NCBI GenBank assembly: GCA_017451645.1
Contig: JAFTNZ010000018.1
Coordinates: 1-64,000 of the forward strand
From: Bacteroidaceae bacterium
GTDB lineage: Bacteria; Bacteroidota; Bacteroidia; Bacteroidales; Bacteroidaceae
DNA length: 64,000 bases
Direction: 5' to 3'
Shown: piece by piece, positions 4,491 through 53,668 of the stretch
Position numbering within the stretch: position 1 is the stretch's first letter
Layout: every line of letters begins with the position of its first letter
Position numbers and translations under genes: made by a program
Notes under the pieces: generated by a model
The model's database searches: none
Told to the model about the DNA's origin: nothing
Seen by the model: the letters and a program-made list of their open reading frames with translations, nothing else

Positions 4491-5981
4491 ATGGGAAGCA
4501 GTCAGAAAATTGCCAAAGGAATGTTTTGGACCACTTTGGTCAATCTGGTGAACGGACTTTACGGATTCATTTCCGTGCCTATTTTATTGGCTTATTTCGG
4601 TAAATCCGATTATGGCTTGATAGGACTGGCCATGTCCGTCAATGTCTATCTTCGCCTGATGGATATGGGGTTGAATTCCACCAATGTCCGTTTCTTCTCC
4701 AACTGGATAGCCAAGAAAGAGTATGGGCAGGTGAACAAACTGTTCCAGACAAGCCTCACGTTTTATGGGACGATAGGTTTGCTGAATGCGTTGATATTGG
4801 TTGTAGTGTCTTGCTTTTCCCAACAGATATTCCACTTAAGTGCCGAACAAGACATCATAGTCAAACACCTTTTCTATATTCTTGCCATCAGTGCATTCAT
4901 CAGTTGGTTCACTTCCTGTTTTGACCAGTTGATACGCGCCAATGAATATGTTGGTTGGACACAGAAAATGACACTTTTACCTAAAGTCGTGCAGATGATT
5001 GTATTGGCGTTGACGGTGCTACTTCATTTCTCCATTGAACTATATTATGCGTTGACTGCATTTTCAATGTTTCTGGTCATACCGTTCTGTGTACATAAAA
5101 TCAGGCAAATATGTCCCTATGTTTCTTTCCATTTAGGTTTTGACAAACCCATTTTGAAAGAGATACTGCCCTATTGCCTGAATATCTTTTCATTCGGAAT
5201 ATTCCAATTCTCAATGAATCATCTCCGTCCGGTATTCCTTGGGATGCAGGGCACGATAGAGTCTGTAGCCGACTATCGGGTATTGAATGGTATAATATCT
5301 ATAGTACTGATGTTAGGAGGTGCTTTCATGGGAGTCTTCCTCCCCTCATCGGCAAAGGCTGTGGCAAAGGGTGATAAGGTTGCACAAGACAAGGTGGCTT
5401 ACAACGGCACCAAATACATCTCCATGACATTGTGCTTCTGTTGTTTTGGGGTAATCAGTGTCAGCCCAGAGTTGATAACGTTATATGTGGGAGAAGAATA
5501 TCTTTATCTGACGGGATGGCTGATTATCTGGCTGCTGACTACACTGGCTGCACACAACCAAGCCATATCAAGCTTAATCTTGGCAGGAACGGACATACGT
5601 GCTATTACCAAAAACACAATCACTTCCTCTATTGTCGGTTTATTGGTATGTTGGTTCACTATCCCTTATTGGCAGATAGGAGGAACTATCATTGCTTATG
5701 GAGTATATGTATTGATGCAATTACTCTTCTACTATTTTTATTACTGGCCACGGGTAATGAAAATTAATTCGTGGAGGATATTCACAAAATCTTTTATACC
5801 ATATGTAATGTTAGGAACAGTTATTTCTTGGGGATGTTTTAGCATCACCATATTCACCAATTCTTGGACTGCATTTTTTACAAAAGGTATTTTATTTGCG
5901 ATATCTTACGGAATTGGAACTTTCTTTCTTTTGACAAAGGAAGACCGCCTATTTATAATAAATATAAGAAAAAAAGTATAG
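4491..5981 (+). CDS. Wzx-type oligosaccharide flippase (locus 1)
   Basis: A 496-residue polytopic membrane protein of the MATE/Wzx group with roughly 12-14 hydrophobic segments and the typical opening GMFWTTLVNLVNGLYGFISVPILLA-like region within residues 10-35. Flippases of this kind move the undecaprenyl-linked repeat unit across the inner membrane for polymerisation. Its GC content is visibly higher than that of its neighbours up to about 5760, which suggests a different origin inside a mosaic locus. Its stop is immediately followed by the start of the polymerase gene with no spacer. Confidence 0.9.
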   Translation: MGSSQKIAKGMFWTTLVNLVNGLYGFISVPILLAYFGKSDYGLIGLAMSVNVYLRLMDMGLNSTNVRFFSNWIAKKEYGQVNKLFQTSLTFYGTIGLLNALILVVVSCFSQQIFHLSAEQDIIVKHLFYILAISAFISWFTSCFDQLIRANEYVGWTQKMTLLPKVVQMIVLALTVLLHFSIELYYALTAFSMFLVIPFCVHKIRQICPYVSFHLGFDKPILKEILPYCLNIFSFGIFQFSMNHLRPVFLGMQGTIESVADYRVLNGIISIVLMLGGAFMGVFLPSSAKAVAKGDKVAQDKVAYNGTKYISMTLCFCCFGVISVSPELITLYVGEEYLYLTGWLIIWLLTTLAAHNQAISSLILAGTDIRAITKNTITSSIVGLLVCWFTIPYWQIGGTIIAYGVYVLMQLLFYYFYYWPRVMKINSWRIFTKSFIPYVMLGTVISWGCFSITIFTNSWTAFFTKGILFAISYGIGTFFLLTKEDRLFIINIRKKV

Positions 5982-10449: not shown

Positions 10450-11070
10450 ATGGAATTAAACAAAATTCAATTCATTCCAAGAAACATAAGGAAAAGATTC
10501 TATTTAAGATGGAACAGATTCTTGTTTAAACTGAATAAGATAAATTATGGGGCTGATTGTATGGTTTACAATGAAATCTATATAAAGAAAGAACAATCTG
10601 CTTCCATCAGTATAGGCAATCATTTCCGGTTTAATAGCGGAGACTGCTATAATCCCTTGGCAAGAAATATCCGAGGTTCAATTTTCGCTTTTAAAGATTC
10701 TAAAATTGAAATAGGGGACCACGTAGGATTAAGTTCTTGTGTTCTATGGTGTTCTCAATCTATAAAAATAGGGAATCATGTAAATATCGGAGCAGACACT
10801 ATCATTTTGGATACGGATTCACATAGTTTGGATTTTCAAACAAGAAGGGACAGAGTTTTGGATGCAAAATCTGCAAAGACTGCTCCCGTCGTAATAGAAG
10901 ATGATGTACTGATCGGTACAAGATGCATCATTTTGAAAGGGGTGACAATTGGCGCAAGAAGCGTAATCGGGGCTGGTAGTGTGGTGACAAAATCAATACC
11001 TGCCGATTGTGTGGCTGCCGGCAATCCGTGTAGAATCATTAAAAAGAGAAATCAAGATGAAAGGGTATAA
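10450..11070 (+). CDS. Hexapeptide-repeat O-acetyltransferase
   Basis: A 206-residue left-handed beta-helix protein. The hexapeptide pattern runs from about residue 50 to 190 (for example IEIGDHVGLSSC, IKIGNHVNIGADTIIL, VIEDDVLIGTRCIILKGVTIG, SVIGAGSVVTKSI), ending with the AAGNPCRII signature of the WcaF/NodL/CysE-like group. The TDSHSLDF segment (about 120-126) supplies the usual catalytic His. It probably acetylates a sugar of the repeat unit in the cytoplasm with acetyl-CoA, complementing the membrane acyltransferase earlier in the locus. Confidence 0.9.
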   Translation: MELNKIQFIPRNIRKRFYLRWNRFLFKLNKINYGADCMVYNEIYIKKEQSASISIGNHFRFNSGDCYNPLARNIRGSIFAFKDSKIEIGDHVGLSSCVLWCSQSIKIGNHVNIGADTIILDTDSHSLDFQTRRDRVLDAKSAKTAPVVIEDDVLIGTRCIILKGVTIGARSVIGAGSVVTKSIPADCVAAGNPCRIIKKRNQDERV

Positions 11071-11071
11071 T

Positions 11072-11821
11072 ATGGAAAAAGGATTAGTTTCAATCGTTAT
11101 AGCTACATACAATTCTGCAAGAACATTGCAGACGGCATTAGCCAGTGTTGCGAATCAAACGTATGCAAACATAGAGTTGGTCGTTGTCGATGGAGGTTCT
11201 ACGGATGGAACTCTTGAAATGATTGAGACCTATGCATTTAAAAGAAAAACGTACATCTCGGAAAAAGATAAAGGAATATTTGATGCTCTCAATAAGGGAG
11301 TGAAAATGTCTTCTGGAGAGTGGATTTTTGTTTTGGGTAGTGATGATGAACTTTTACCTGATGGCATTGACACATTAATACAGCACAGTGACGGATTTGA
11401 TGTCGTGTACGGAAATACAATAAACAGATTTGATGATGGTAGTCTGACTCTGTTTAAAGCAAAGGATTATCATTGTTTGAATCACATTATATGTTGCTGC
11501 CATCAAGGCCTTATCATGAAAAAGGATTGTATATTAAGAGAAAATGGCTTTAATCTTAATTACCCGCTTCGTGCAGATTTTGACTTGATACAACGTTGTT
11601 ATTTAAAGGAATACAGATTCAGACAAGTCGATGCATCCATCGCTTATTACTATGTGGGAGGTGCCAGCGGGCAGGCTAATCTTTCTTCAGATATAGAACG
11701 GTATCACATATTGAAGAATAATCATTCTACAAAATTCCCATTTTTGGTATTCTTGTACTATTTCATGAAGAAGCTGGTACGGTTGTATATTTATGACCCT
11801 AAAAAAAATATAAAAGCATGA
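11072..11821 (+). CDS. Glycosyltransferase family 2 (locus 1)
   Basis: A 249-residue GT2 enzyme of the WcaA type: GLVSIVIATYNSARTLQTAL at the N terminus, VVVDGGSTDGTLE (about residue 37-49), and LGSDDELLPDG (about 86-97) as the DxD-like metal site. The ATG at 11072 sits one base after the previous stop; a second candidate at 11057 would overlap the acetyltransferase by 14 nt. The stop overlaps the FrhB-like gene. Family members of this length often add galactose, fucose or N-acetyl sugars, but nothing here fixes the donor. Confidence 0.9.
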   Translation: MEKGLVSIVIATYNSARTLQTALASVANQTYANIELVVVDGGSTDGTLEMIETYAFKRKTYISEKDKGIFDALNKGVKMSSGEWIFVLGSDDELLPDGIDTLIQHSDGFDVVYGNTINRFDDGSLTLFKAKDYHCLNHIICCCHQGLIMKKDCILRENGFNLNYPLRADFDLIQRCYLKEYRFRQVDASIAYYYVGGASGQANLSSDIERYHILKNNHSTKFPFLVFLYYFMKKLVRLYIYDPKKNIKA

Positions 11822-13035
11822 TTCAATTAGCAAACAGATTAGACTGCACTGGTTGTTCAGCTTGTGCCAACATTTGTGGCCATAATGCAATTGCTATGGT
11901 TGCAGATGAAGAAGGTTTTTTGCAGCCACAGATTGACAAGGAGCAATGTGTAGAGTGTGGGTTGTGTGCTAAATCTTGCCCCATAGTATCTTCGAAATCA
12001 GAAATCCCTTCAGATAAAGAAAAGCAGACAGCGTATGCTTTAATTAGCTATGAAGACCGGACGGTAAGTTCCTCTGGTGGAGCCTTTTCAGTATTTGCCA
12101 AATGGATATTGAGACAAGGAGGTATCGTATATGGTGCTACAATAGATGACCAACTTCAAGTTTACCATGTTGGTATAGATAAATTGGAAGATTTAGGAAA
12201 GCTGAGGGGATCAAAATATATACAAAGTAAAATTGGTAATACTTATCGTGAAGCGAAAGATTGGTTGAGAAAAGGACGGAAAGTCTTATATACCGGAACT
12301 CCTTGTCAAATAGCCGGTTTGTATGGATTTCTCAACGGAAAGAAATATGAAGGTTCTCTTTATACTTTGGACTTGGTATGCCATGGTGTGCCTTCACAAA
12401 AAGGTTTTGATGCTTACCTTGATAAAATTAAGAAAAATTGTCCCGGCACCGGGAATATTGAAGCATTTCGATTCCGTAAATTTGATAGCTGGGATTATCG
12501 ACCAGCTATCAAATTTACGGAATCGAAATGGAAAATATTGAAGTATGCTGATAATGCATATATGAATGCTTTTTTTGAAGGATTAACTTTTAGAGAGAGT
12601 TGTTTTAGATGCAACTATTGTAATACAGACCGAGTAGGAACATTTACCATTGCAGACTTTTGGGGGATAGGAAAACATGGACATAAATTCAAAAGAAATG
12701 TAGCATGTGGAGTTTCTTTGGTAATAGATAATTATGGTATAATGCCACAACTTGTAGAGAATCTAAACCAATATGCTTATATTGAAAAACGCTGGATGGA
12801 TGAAGCCGTGGCTGAACAAACCAATCTTAAGCATCCGATGCCAAGAAATGAAATGCGTGACAATACCGTAAAAGATATGATTGATCCGACCATATCGTTG
12901 AAGGATTTTTCTAAAAAATATGGTTTGCCATATCAGAATACTATAAAATCGGTGTTGAAGGAAGGTGTGAAAACTTTGATTTATAATTTAGGATTATACA
13001 ACCTTTATAAAACTTTATCATATAAATTCTCATGA
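11818..13035 (+). CDS. Iron-sulfur FrhB/FdhB-like protein of polysaccharide clusters
   Basis: A 405-residue protein with an N-terminal double 4Fe-4S ferredoxin domain (CTGCSACANICG about residues 10-21 and CVECGLCAKSCP about 44-55), then the coenzyme F420 hydrogenase/dehydrogenase beta-subunit domains: a middle part with the SSGGAFSVFAKWIL and YTGTPCQIAGL motifs and a C-terminal part with CFRCNYCNTDRVGTFTIADFWGI. Such proteins are common in Bacteroides capsule loci, usually beside pyruvyl transferases as here; they probably perform a flavin/Fe-S redox step on a sugar, but the reaction is not established. The coding sequence contains a perfect 29-bp inverted repeat (12464-12530, residues 216-238). 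Stop and start overlap with the next gene. Confidence 0.85.
   Translation: MIQLANRLDCTGCSACANICGHNAIAMVADEEGFLQPQIDKEQCVECGLCAKSCPIVSSKSEIPSDKEKQTAYALISYEDRTVSSSGGAFSVFAKWILRQGGIVYGATIDDQLQVYHVGIDKLEDLGKLRGSKYIQSKIGNTYREAKDWLRKGRKVLYTGTPCQIAGLYGFLNGKKYEGSLYTLDLVCHGVPSQKGFDAYLDKIKKNCPGTGNIEAFRFRKFDSWDYRPAIKFTESKWKILKYADNAYMNAFFEGLTFRESCFRCNYCNTDRVGTFTIADFWGIGKHGHKFKRNVACGVSLVIDNYGIMPQLVENLNQYAYIEKRWMDEAVAEQTNLKHPMPRNEMRDNTVKDMIDPTISLKDFSKKYGLPYQNTIKSVLKEGVKTLIYNLGLYNLYKTLSYKFS
12464..12530. repeat. Perfect 29-bp inverted repeat inside a coding sequence
   Basis: Left arm 12464-12492 begins CATTTCGATTCCG and ends TAGCTGG; the 9-nt loop is GATTATCGA; right arm 12502-12530 is its exact reverse complement. 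I checked it base by base; pairing stops at the next position outward (12463 versus 12531). It is read as FRFRKFDSW / loop / PAIKFTESK without breaking the frame. Confidence 0.95.
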
Positions 13036-14207
13036 AAATAGGTATTGTTACATACGTGAAATGTGATAATTATGGTGCAGAATTGCAGGCTTATGCTATG
13101 CAATATATTTTTAGAAAATTGGGATATGATGCAGAACTTGTAAATTTAGAAAAGCGAGAAAAGGATTTGACTTCATCAGCATCTGCTATCATACCAGCCA
13201 TTATCAATCGTTTCAAAGTATATGGTTGGAAAGCTCCTTTTAAAATATTAAAATTGGTTGGTGATGTAATTGAACGAAAAAAAGCATCTAAATTATATGC
13301 AGAAGAAGAACGGAATAAGCATAAATTATTTACAGACTTCTTTGAAAATAATATAGCACATTCTGAAAAATTCTATACTTTAGAGAGTGTATATACCGAT
13401 GATATGCCGTATAATGTTTTTGTAGCAGGCAGTGATCAGATATGGAATTATATGCATACAGATAATTTGGATGTATATTTCTTGATGTTTGCAAATCGTT
13501 TCAATGCTAAAAAGATTTCCTATGCTGCAAGTATAAGTGTGCCGGATATACCATCACGATTGCATGCCGACTATAAAAAATATTTGGAGAATTTGGACTC
13601 TGTAGCTGTTCGCGAATTGAGAGGGAAAGAGTTGGTGGAGAAATATAGCAATAAAACAGCTGAAGTCGTTCTAGACCCAACTTTGTTAGTGACAAAAGAA
13701 GAATGGAAATGTAATGTTGCTAACGAAATTAGGAAAGGAGAGAAATATGTTCTTATTTACACGCTTTCCGGTTCTTTCTATATTAGGGATTTGGCCAAAT
13801 CTATAGCACAAAGAATTAGTCCAAACTGTAAAGTCATTAATATTAAGCCTAATTTTAAAAAGGAAAATCCCAATGATGGAATAGAGCATCTCTATAACGT
13901 TGGCCCTAAAGAATGGGTTGGTCTCTTGATGAATGCGGCTTATATTGTCACGGACAGTTTTCACGGAACTGCATTCTCTATAAATTTCAATATTCCATTT
14001 ACTACTTTGGTAAATCCCACCAGCAATATGAACAGTCGCGTAATGTCAATATTAACAATTACAGGACTACAGAATAGAATCATCTATGACGATGACTCCC
14101 ATTTGGAACCTCAGTCTTTGGATGTGGATTTTAGTCCTGTAAATAAAATAATTGAGAATTGGCGTACAAAATCCGTTGACTATATTCACAAAGCATTATC
14201 TTGTTAG
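13032..14207 (+). CDS. Polysaccharide pyruvyl transferase family protein (second)
   Basis: A 391-residue protein with the family hallmarks: GIVTYVKCDNYGAELQAYAMQ at the N terminus (residues 3-23), VFVAGSDQIWN (about 135), SYAASISVPDIP, VREL..KELVEK, VVLDPTLLV (about 217) and AAYIVTDSFHGTAFSINFNIP (about 303-323) carrying the conserved Ser-Phe-His-Gly. This subgroup is the usual partner of FrhB-like proteins, whose gene directly precedes it with a 4-nt overlap, so the two probably act on the same substrate. It is only distantly similar to the pyruvyl transferase at 2283. Confidence 0.85.
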   Translation: MKIGIVTYVKCDNYGAELQAYAMQYIFRKLGYDAELVNLEKREKDLTSSASAIIPAIINRFKVYGWKAPFKILKLVGDVIERKKASKLYAEEERNKHKLFTDFFENNIAHSEKFYTLESVYTDDMPYNVFVAGSDQIWNYMHTDNLDVYFLMFANRFNAKKISYAASISVPDIPSRLHADYKKYLENLDSVAVRELRGKELVEKYSNKTAEVVLDPTLLVTKEEWKCNVANEIRKGEKYVLIYTLSGSFYIRDLAKSIAQRISPNCKVINIKPNFKKENPNDGIEHLYNVGPKEWVGLLMNAAYIVTDSFHGTAFSINFNIPFTTLVNPTSNMNSRVMSILTITGLQNRIIYDDDSHLEPQSLDVDFSPVNKIIENWRTKSVDYIHKALSC

Positions 14208-20287: not shown

Positions 20288-20376
20288 GGATTCAAACATG
20301 GGCATAACATCAAATTGAAACGATAAAATGATTTGTTGAATCTTGAGTTTCCCCAAAATGTATATTGAAAACGCAA

Positions 20377-20417
20377 GACGCGGGGATACAGAGAAATGGG
20401 CTCTGTATCCCCGCGTC
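20377..20417 (-). terminator. Terminator of the DUF3127 gene
   Basis: A perfect 17-bp stem (GACGCGGGGATACAGAG and its complement) with a 7-nt loop, 30 nt past the stop of the minus-strand gene and followed on that strand by TTGCGTTTTC. Confidence 0.9.
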
Positions 20418-20447
20418 TTTGCTTTCCTGACAGATTGCCTGCTGATT

Positions 20448-29344: not shown

Positions 29345-29362
29345 TAAAAAAAGAGGGTCTTG

Positions 29363-29416
29363 AAATGAAGTGAACCCCAGAAGTTTTTGGTCTGACTCCT
29401 GGGGTTCACTTCATTT
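29363..29416. terminator. Bidirectional terminator between convergent genes
   Basis: An 18-bp stem, AAATGAAGTGAACCCCAG against its complement, one mismatch at most, with a 17-nt loop; A-rich sequence on the left and CCCTTTTT on the right give U-tracts for both directions. It serves the TPR protein gene (+) and lemA-like gene (-). Confidence 0.9.
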
Positions 29417-29429
29417 AGGCACACCCTTT

Positions 29430-30008
29430 TTAAAACTCTACCGTCGGAGCCTTTTCACTTCCTGCTTCGGCCTCAAAATAAGCCCGCTTGTCAAAGCCGA
29501 AAAGACCAGCAATTATATTTTGTGGAAACTTGCGGATGTAGGTATTATAATCACCTACCACTTCATTAAAATTGCGTCGTTCCACACTGATACGGTTTTC
29601 TGTACCCTCAAGTTGTGCTTGCAACTCTTTAAAATTCTCATTGGCCTTCAAATCAGGATAAGCCTCAGTTATTGCAAGAAGTTTGCCGAGCGCACTGGTC
29701 ACTTGCCCTTGTGCCTCCTGATACTCCTTCAGCTTTTCTGGAGTCAAATCTTCAGCGTTAACCGTTATTTGGGTTGCCTTCGAACGGGCTTCCAACACTG
29801 CGCTCAGGGTTGTCTGCTCATGCTGAGCATATCCCTTGACGGTGTTCACCAAATTGGGAATAAGGTCAGAACGGCGCTGATATTGGTTCTCAACGTTACT
29901 CCAGGCTTTATTCACAGCCTCCTCTTTCTCTGTCATTGTGTTGTAGCCACAACTGTTAAGTCCCACCAAGGCTATCAAAGCCACAAGCAATTTACTGATT
30001 TTCTTCAT
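29430..30008 (-). CDS. LemA family protein
   Basis: A 192-residue protein with an N-terminal lipoprotein-like signal (LLVALIALVGLNSCGYNTM, Cys about 20) and the LemA core: VNKAWSNVENQYQRRSDLIPNLVNTVKGYA and later NENFKELQAQLEGTENRISVERR...YN..IRKFPQNIIAGLFGF. The family is membrane-anchored with a helical bundle outside; its function is unclear, though it is constantly found next to TPM-domain proteins, as here (42 nt apart). Confidence 0.92.
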   Translation of the reverse strand: MKKISKLLVALIALVGLNSCGYNTMTEKEEAVNKAWSNVENQYQRRSDLIPNLVNTVKGYAQHEQTTLSAVLEARSKATQITVNAEDLTPEKLKEYQEAQGQVTSALGKLLAITEAYPDLKANENFKELQAQLEGTENRISVERRNFNEVVGDYNTYIRKFPQNIIAGLFGFDKRAYFEAEAGSEKAPTVEF

Positions 30009-53479: not shown

Positions 53480-53516
53480 CAAAATATTGGCTGCAAAAGC
53501 AAGAAAATCCATCAAT

Positions 53517-53610
53517 ATTCTATAATCCGTGACGCAGATTATATAATCTGAAGCTTGGATTATATAATCTGTGATTCAGAATATATAATCTGTGATTCAG
53601 ATTATAGAAT
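53517..53610. repeat. Five-unit palindrome array, 21-bp period
   Basis: Core GATTATATAATC occurs exactly at 53537-53548 and 53558-53569, with one change at 53579-53590 (GAATATATAATC). Half-changed outer units sit at 53517-53527 (ATTCTATAATC) and 53600-53610 (GATTATAGAAT), mirror images of each other. All five are in 21-bp register, and spacers are related (TGTGATTCA twice). Confidence 0.92.
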
Positions 53611-53668
53611 AGAAGCCTTTTTATTGGGAATTTACAGGGTTACTTGGGGAAGTTACTTCGGGTATAGA

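Follow-up and report, generated by a model that had tools for sequence, protein, structure and literature searches.

A 29-bp coding palindrome in a Bacteroidaceae FrhB-like gene recurs at one site among homologues and is probably maintained by template switching

Introduction

Quasipalindromes in thyA and lacZ reporters of E. coli are hotspots of template switching, an experimental system interpreted through the Ripley model (PMC7202029). In yeast genes, template switching homogenizes the arms of inverted repeats and inverts their spacers (PMC8604942). Perfect coding palindromes are also found in the mitochondrial genes of Nematomorpha, where they show binary identity and where conversion has been proposed (PMC6649704), and template switching can both create and maintain RNA hairpins (PMC8794818).

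Here, we analyze a 64,000-nucleotide stretch of a Bacteroidaceae contig (JAFTNZ010000018.1; the window), in which an FrhB-like gene, designated W, contains a perfect inverted repeat; homologous loci carry L numbers. As judged from sequence comparisons, template switching by DNA polymerase probably created this coding palindrome and has kept its arms perfect. The mechanism is known, because published work already names homogenized arms and inverted spacers; what appears to be new, as far as our literature searches reach, is that it has recurred over the long term at a single site in a bacterial protein family. The interest of the locus is this recurrence, together with a possible second family, and not the mechanism itself. 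Literature searches on spacer inversion with template switching in prokaryotes and on F420 hydrogenase with polysaccharide pyruvyl transferase returned nothing, and a search on FrhB with inverted repeats returned one match, on methanogenesis genes.

As at the E. coli hotspots, an imperfect repeat would become perfect when one arm is copied from the other in replication; unlike those laboratory-measured hotspots, the palindromes of the W family appear to have persisted at one site, while being rewritten, across deep divergence (PMC7202029). The family shares with yeast coding genes perfect arms, reverse-complemented spacers, and residue swaps (E/F, K/L). The yeast cases, however, comprise 39 genes in strains of one species, with arms of 10 to 16 bp in the spacer table (PMC8604942), whereas the present cases are bacterial, reach 29 bp, and recur at one position across genera and phyla. 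The Nematomorpha repeats are likewise long, perfect, and within genes, with both arms coding for conserved protein, with gains and losses, and with binary identity, but they affect many genes of one unusual mitochondrial lineage and reach 284 bp (PMC6649704); the W family instead shows a favored site in particular bacterial families, and loop flips. Multibase compensatory change from a single event, as described for RNA hairpins, is a further likeness, although that work concerns RNA genes and the W family is protein coding with no sign of G-U tolerance (PMC8794818). Taken as a whole, the W family provides repeated natural cases in which template switching in coding DNA can be tested.

The palindrome and its host gene

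W lies between genes for a glycosyltransferase and a polysaccharide pyruvyl transferase (Table 1). Its frame is uninterrupted over 405 codons, palindrome included. The AlphaFold2 model of the protein has a pLDDT of 94, and its best PDB match is 8rja_E, from an F420-reducing enzyme complex, with a TM-score of 0.53. In the model, strands flank the palindrome segment on both sides, and the C-terminus is mostly helices.

Table 1. Coordinates of the palindrome, its host gene and neighbors in the window, and of the genes of a second family
Feature	Position	Strand	Basis or remarks
Family-2 glycosyltransferase gene, upstream neighbor	11009..11821	+	ORF, Pfam
FrhB/FdhB-like iron-sulfur protein gene (W), 405 aa	11818..13035	+	ORF; Pfam Fer4_7, FrhB_FdhB_N, FrhB_FdhB_C
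Arm 1	12464..12492	+	Codons 216-225; strand 214-218 and loop after it
Spacer/loop GATTATCGA	12493..12501	+	Encodes D-Y-R; 9 nt
Arm 2	12502..12530	+	Codons 229-238; strand 230-233 and turn; exact reverse complement of arm 1
Polysaccharide pyruvyl transferase gene, downstream neighbor	13032..14207	+	ORF, Pfam
Gly_transf_sug genes	L052:5426-6163; L008:148-774; L264-L286	- (L008)	Recurrent in-gene palindromes

The two arms are complementary at 29/29 positions and lie 9 nt apart, so that the exact inverted repeat inside an open coding frame described by the initial sequence-only reading is confirmed. Of the perfect inverted repeats listed for the window (arms no more than 200 nt apart), this one is the longest. 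The same reading had held that such pairing does not arise by chance. Indeed, 40 synonymous shuffles of each of 226 homologous genes gave no hairpin scoring at least 20, compared with six observed. In a sample of 394 kb of ORF sequence (20 sampled 20-kb stretches plus the window), seven in-gene hairpins, that of W included, scored at least 11, and the next highest after W scored 16. The synonymous shuffles and the sampled-stretch control exclude a chance origin of the palindrome. The expected stability of the transcript hairpin was likewise borne out by prediction, with a fold of -57.5 kcal/mol for the palindrome region, well below the shuffle mean of -22.4.

Other inverted repeats in the window were recorded. 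A perfect 19-bp hairpin with a 7-nt loop at 20375-20419, not counted inside any ORF of at least 100 aa, is possibly a terminator-type element; an imperfect inverted repeat of 37 nt (81%) at 29348-29431 has a perfect core of 18 bp; and overlapping imperfect palindromes are clustered at 53516-53616, with a repeated unit resembling TATAATCTG.

The assembly holding the window (2.5 Mb, 72.6% complete, 38 contigs) is possibly metagenome derived, which could favor the view that the palindrome is an assembly artifact or an inserted palindromic element. We give this view almost no credence. The reading frame is intact and the protein is still family typical in both arms, as the sequence-only reading had noticed; there is no insertion at the palindrome relative to the homologues L036 and L045; and the same kind of hairpin occurs in records without a metagenome-assembly label (L048 from Barnesiella sp. 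WM24 and L050 from Phocaeicola intestinalis strain Sa1CVN1).

Rickettsia palindromic elements are repeated elements inserted inside open reading frames. They lose arm identity (PMC6649704). The palindrome of W also lies in an open reading frame, but its arm pair occurs once in its assembly and is not inserted. No second copy of the arm was found in the 2.5-Mb assembly with up to three mismatches allowed. An inserted element of the Rickettsia type was rejected, given the absence of an insertion relative to L036 and L045 and the presence of the arm at one locus only.

Sampling of homologues

Among the first 101 genomes searched, there was no full-length relative above 46% identity; a search of the family (399 genomes) retrieved L036 at 57% and nine others at 42 to 46%. 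A pattern search of named genomes, from which the best 80 of 587 candidate loci were kept, spanned several phyla, and these 80 included L047 (uncultured Prevotella, 57%) and L045 (53%). A first contig search with the single W protein as query gave no matches, 61 genomes from the same genus as G312 yielded only the query and one already-known place, and an order-wide search of 393 genomes at an E value of 1e-85 gave W only.

The resulting set comprised 226 distinct genes, which are not a random sample because they were selected by similarity to W. Hairpins were scanned with loops of 3 to 15 nt, a match score of +1, a mismatch score of -3, and a cutoff of at least 11. For close-up analysis, we used 17 genes, namely the 15-member clade containing W (support, 82) and the outgroup genes L044 and L062, which were picked for their W-x3-P layout, nearer outgroups without it (e.g., L053 and L142) being left out. 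We note that one FrhB-like gene, L074:3001-4239, has one internal stop codon.

Recurrence at one site

The scan retrieved 36 hairpins in 32 of the 226 homologous genes. In W numbering, 31 of the 36 lie at residues 214 to 249, and 26 lie at residues 225 to 233; the remaining five are at residues 41, 157, 189 (two), and 202. Taken by gene, 29/226 have a perfect or near-perfect hairpin of 11 to 29 bp at residues 214 to 249. The 40 synonymous-codon shuffles of the 226 genes gave a mean of 2.4 hairpins and a maximum of 6, and 446 kb of neighboring ORFs of the homologue loci held four that scored at least 12, two of which belong to a second recurrent family (see below). The scores are bimodal: 20 of 114 loci score at least 12, and the remaining 94 do not exceed 9, leaving 10 and 11 empty (among the 20 high-scoring loci, L046 and L050 duplicate L039 and L041).

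Within the clade of W, 11 of 15 genes hold 11 or 12 of 12 inner pairs, and the other four (L036, L045, L037, and L049) are near chance. Of the two outgroup genes, L044 is paired and L062 is not. Over all 17 genes, 12/12 inner pairs occur in eleven and 11/12 in L004, while the five unpaired genes have 3 to 6. The twelve paired genes have ten different arm sequences. At the codons that form the palindrome in W, relatives pair just as well with other sequences: L047 has 28 perfect pairs, L044 has 27, and L038 to L043 have 16 or 17. Centers and codon registers vary between genes (17, 10, and 9 of the 36 hairpins in the three registers). Nucleotide alignment with homologues, the check put forward in the sequence-only reading, thus shows that the palindrome is shared, in that relatives carry perfect but differently spelled hairpins at the same site. 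Compared with L036, arm 1 of W is identical at 25/29 nt and arm 2 at 16/29 nt.

These results bear on the proposal that the palindrome is a single private template-switch scar, or a chance palindrome, in one strain. Although single-lineage events of this kind are described in yeast genes (PMC8604942), the 28-bp palindrome of L047 corresponds to that of W, with changes mirrored in both arms, and a further ten of the 17 genes have palindromes of their own. This proposal is highly improbable and was rejected, as relatives share the palindrome. Of the origins first suggested, a template-switch scar is supported in kind; as a single private event it is not, since the process looks recurrent, with arms also maintained and loops flipped across many relatives. 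The differing arm sequences of relatives also speak against a target for a sequence-specific recombinase, which had been suggested as well.

Three further loci deserve mention. L143:201-1367 and its relative in L145 have 25-bp perfect coding palindromes centered on a conserved DLVCHG motif. The L047 contig has two FrhB-like genes (1056-2261 and 4516-5256; the latter extends up to where the stretch ends). Both carry a palindrome, and the two palindromes differ in sequence. At L030:1237-1308, perfect inverted repeats of 26 and 23 bp overlap and share units.

Covariation of the arms

W and L047 are 62.5% identical in DNA. Their 28-bp arms differ at three positions, all of which are mirrored, and third codon positions are identical at 16/19 sites in the arms compared with 162/379 outside. 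The expectation that codon constraint should break the palindrome was therefore half right: the arms still encode family-typical protein, and silent sites are more alike inside the arms than outside. Mirrored substitutions number three in W/L047, two in L125/L126, one in L012/L186, and none in three other pairs, the stems compared being perfect by selection. With that restriction on the stems, arm changes are mirrored between relatives, as homogenization predicts.

Across the 17 genes, own-arm pairing beats that of swapped arms (0/20,000 permutations reach it). The pair-covariation score is 0.491, compared with 0.187 in shuffles (0/500 as high) and a maximum of 0.153 when partners are slid; the numbers of cells changed on both sides and of cells paired are each unmatched by shuffles (0/500). 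Of the five covariation measures, two give weak signals, namely pairs changed on both sides (11 versus 8.4; 10/500 shuffles reach it) and further pair types (27 versus 24.3; 87/500). Pairing also leaves a trace in the coding sequence. Because the clade pairs in codon register, the third base of the Gly/Ser codon before a conserved Trp sets the first base after a conserved Pro. In paired close-up genes, the Gly codons GGT, GGA, and GGC go with Thr, Ser, and Ala after the Pro, respectively; this rule fails in the five unpaired genes.

The 35 distinct stems contain eight mismatches in 607 pairs (four A-C, one G-T, and three others). At the first pair outside the stem, G-T occurs in 6/35 and A-C in 7/35, and pairs farther out match at chance level (93/420). 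Since mismatches are few, G-T is not preferred, and matching beyond the stem is at chance, the stems have sharp ends and are maintained as complements at the DNA level. Such abrupt-ended, near-perfect arms agree with template switching.

A selected mRNA or DNA hairpin, acting in translation pausing between domains, in processing, or in differential operon expression and held by purifying selection with compensatory mutations, would account for a position conserved over deep divergence, for the strong covariation, and for the very stable predicted RNA fold, and it draws further support from a site enrichment that variability alone leaves unexplained. We nevertheless regard it as unlikely. In the close-up set, the 12 hairpin genes have 144 inner pairs, none of them G-U, and G-T does not exceed A-C in the 35 stems; the excess of G-U over A-C that a conserved RNA hairpin or attenuator should tolerate was thus not seen. 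At the threshold used, 194/226 genes have no hairpin, including the four unpaired members of the clade, and the stems differ in length, center, and codon register. An Rfam search gave 12 matches, all under the gathering score, and the sequence after arm 2 contains no T-run (the terminator scan takes loops of 3 to 8 nt, and that of W has 9). The processing or attenuation signal considered in the sequence-only reading finds no support in these features or in a clade in which 4 of 15 genes lack the pairing.

The distribution on the tree is uneven. The unpaired L036 and L045 are nested between the paired W and L047 (support of 90 for W with L036 and L045, and of 98 with L047 added), and 29 hairpin genes among 225 require 19 Fitch changes. 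Several gains and losses across the family are thereby indicated by comparison. Because L036 and L045 are unpaired despite a W-like arm-2 protein, the palindrome shared by W and L047 could stem from transfer between lineages.

Loop flips

The loop of L045, TCGATAATT, encodes S-I-I in place of the D-Y-R of W. It matches the loop of W at 8/9 positions as reverse complement and at 0/9 directly. Because its loop is the near reverse complement of that of W, the ancestor of L045 most likely had the palindrome. In the 87% identical genes of L143 and L145, the 25-bp arms are identical and the loop reads CACG in one and CGTG in the other; one gene encodes His there, the other Arg. A TTT loop in L038, L039, and the second copy in L047 corresponds to AAA in L040, L041, and L042; these flips are weak singly because just three bases differ. 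In all, a flip matches 10/136 loop pairs, which are not independent, compared with 3/32,589 control windows of other codons in the same genes. Spacer inversion was thus found, between species only.

Flips at no fewer than three places in the family could also point to a micro-inversion switch, in which frequent inversion of the loop would yield two protein forms (D-Y-R/S-I-I) that are selected as variation. There is precedent in the spacer of yeast SPO75, which flips repeatedly between K and L (PMC8604942). Here, however, flips are seen between diverged species only, and we consider such a switch very unlikely.

Template switching as the probable origin

In the template-switching explanation, which we infer from comparisons of distant species, the growing strand would meet a partly paired hairpin during replication and there fold back or switch to the sister strand; the polymerase would copy one arm from the other and then return. 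Each event would rewrite the mismatches of one arm, making the arms exact complements, and a strand-to-strand switch would also invert the loop. If such correction outpaces new arm mutations, the arms would evolve in concert. The strand-loop-strand protein segment presumably tolerates the resulting changes, and this tolerance would explain the persistence of hairpins at the site. Under template switching, no function of the hairpin is needed.

The choice of site is only partly accounted for by variability. The segment at residues 226 to 240 is the most variable before residue 316, but the C-terminus (residues 316 to 405) is about as variable, and the 226-gene scan found no hairpin there; variability alone is thus insufficient as the cause. 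A short seed present throughout the family is hardly supported either. In hairpin-less homologues, the mean best stem at 226 to 240 is 4.37, compared with 3.8 to 4.5 elsewhere, and stems of at least 8 are commonest there (6/175 versus 0 to 4 per other segment), so that complementarity is barely raised, and slightly at most. The structural model leads us to propose that a turn between two short strands is where the protein would best tolerate a reverse-complement copy.

Compensatory changes commonly count as proof of a selected RNA structure, and consecutive amino acid changes as proof of positive selection. Here the two coincide, and a mutation mechanism at work for a very long time within a bacterial gene family is the better explanation. 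Pairing in the palindrome makes the first base of one codon depend on the third base of another. Codon-based tests may mislead at such sites.

A bolder idea is that particular protein families of bacterial capsule loci have dedicated palindromic diversity sites, at which the hairpin is selected since a single template-switching step replaces a block of residues and inverts the turn while the fold is kept. If true, this would amount to replication-driven, enzyme-free targeted variation at strand-loop-strand segments. We hold this idea to be unlikely.

A second gene family

Among 24 distinct genes of the capsule glycosyltransferase family Gly_transf_sug (PF04488), six carry a total of seven hairpins, of which four lie at residues 107-108, two at residue 114, and one at residue 207. 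Here too, the site may be a strand-turn-strand segment. That a second capsule family shows this pattern, albeit in a small sample, suggests a wider occurrence. In L267, IPT has become IQT (Pro to Gln) inside a 12-bp arm, as arm copying would do, while the Pro is kept in L052, L264, L265, and L266/L008.
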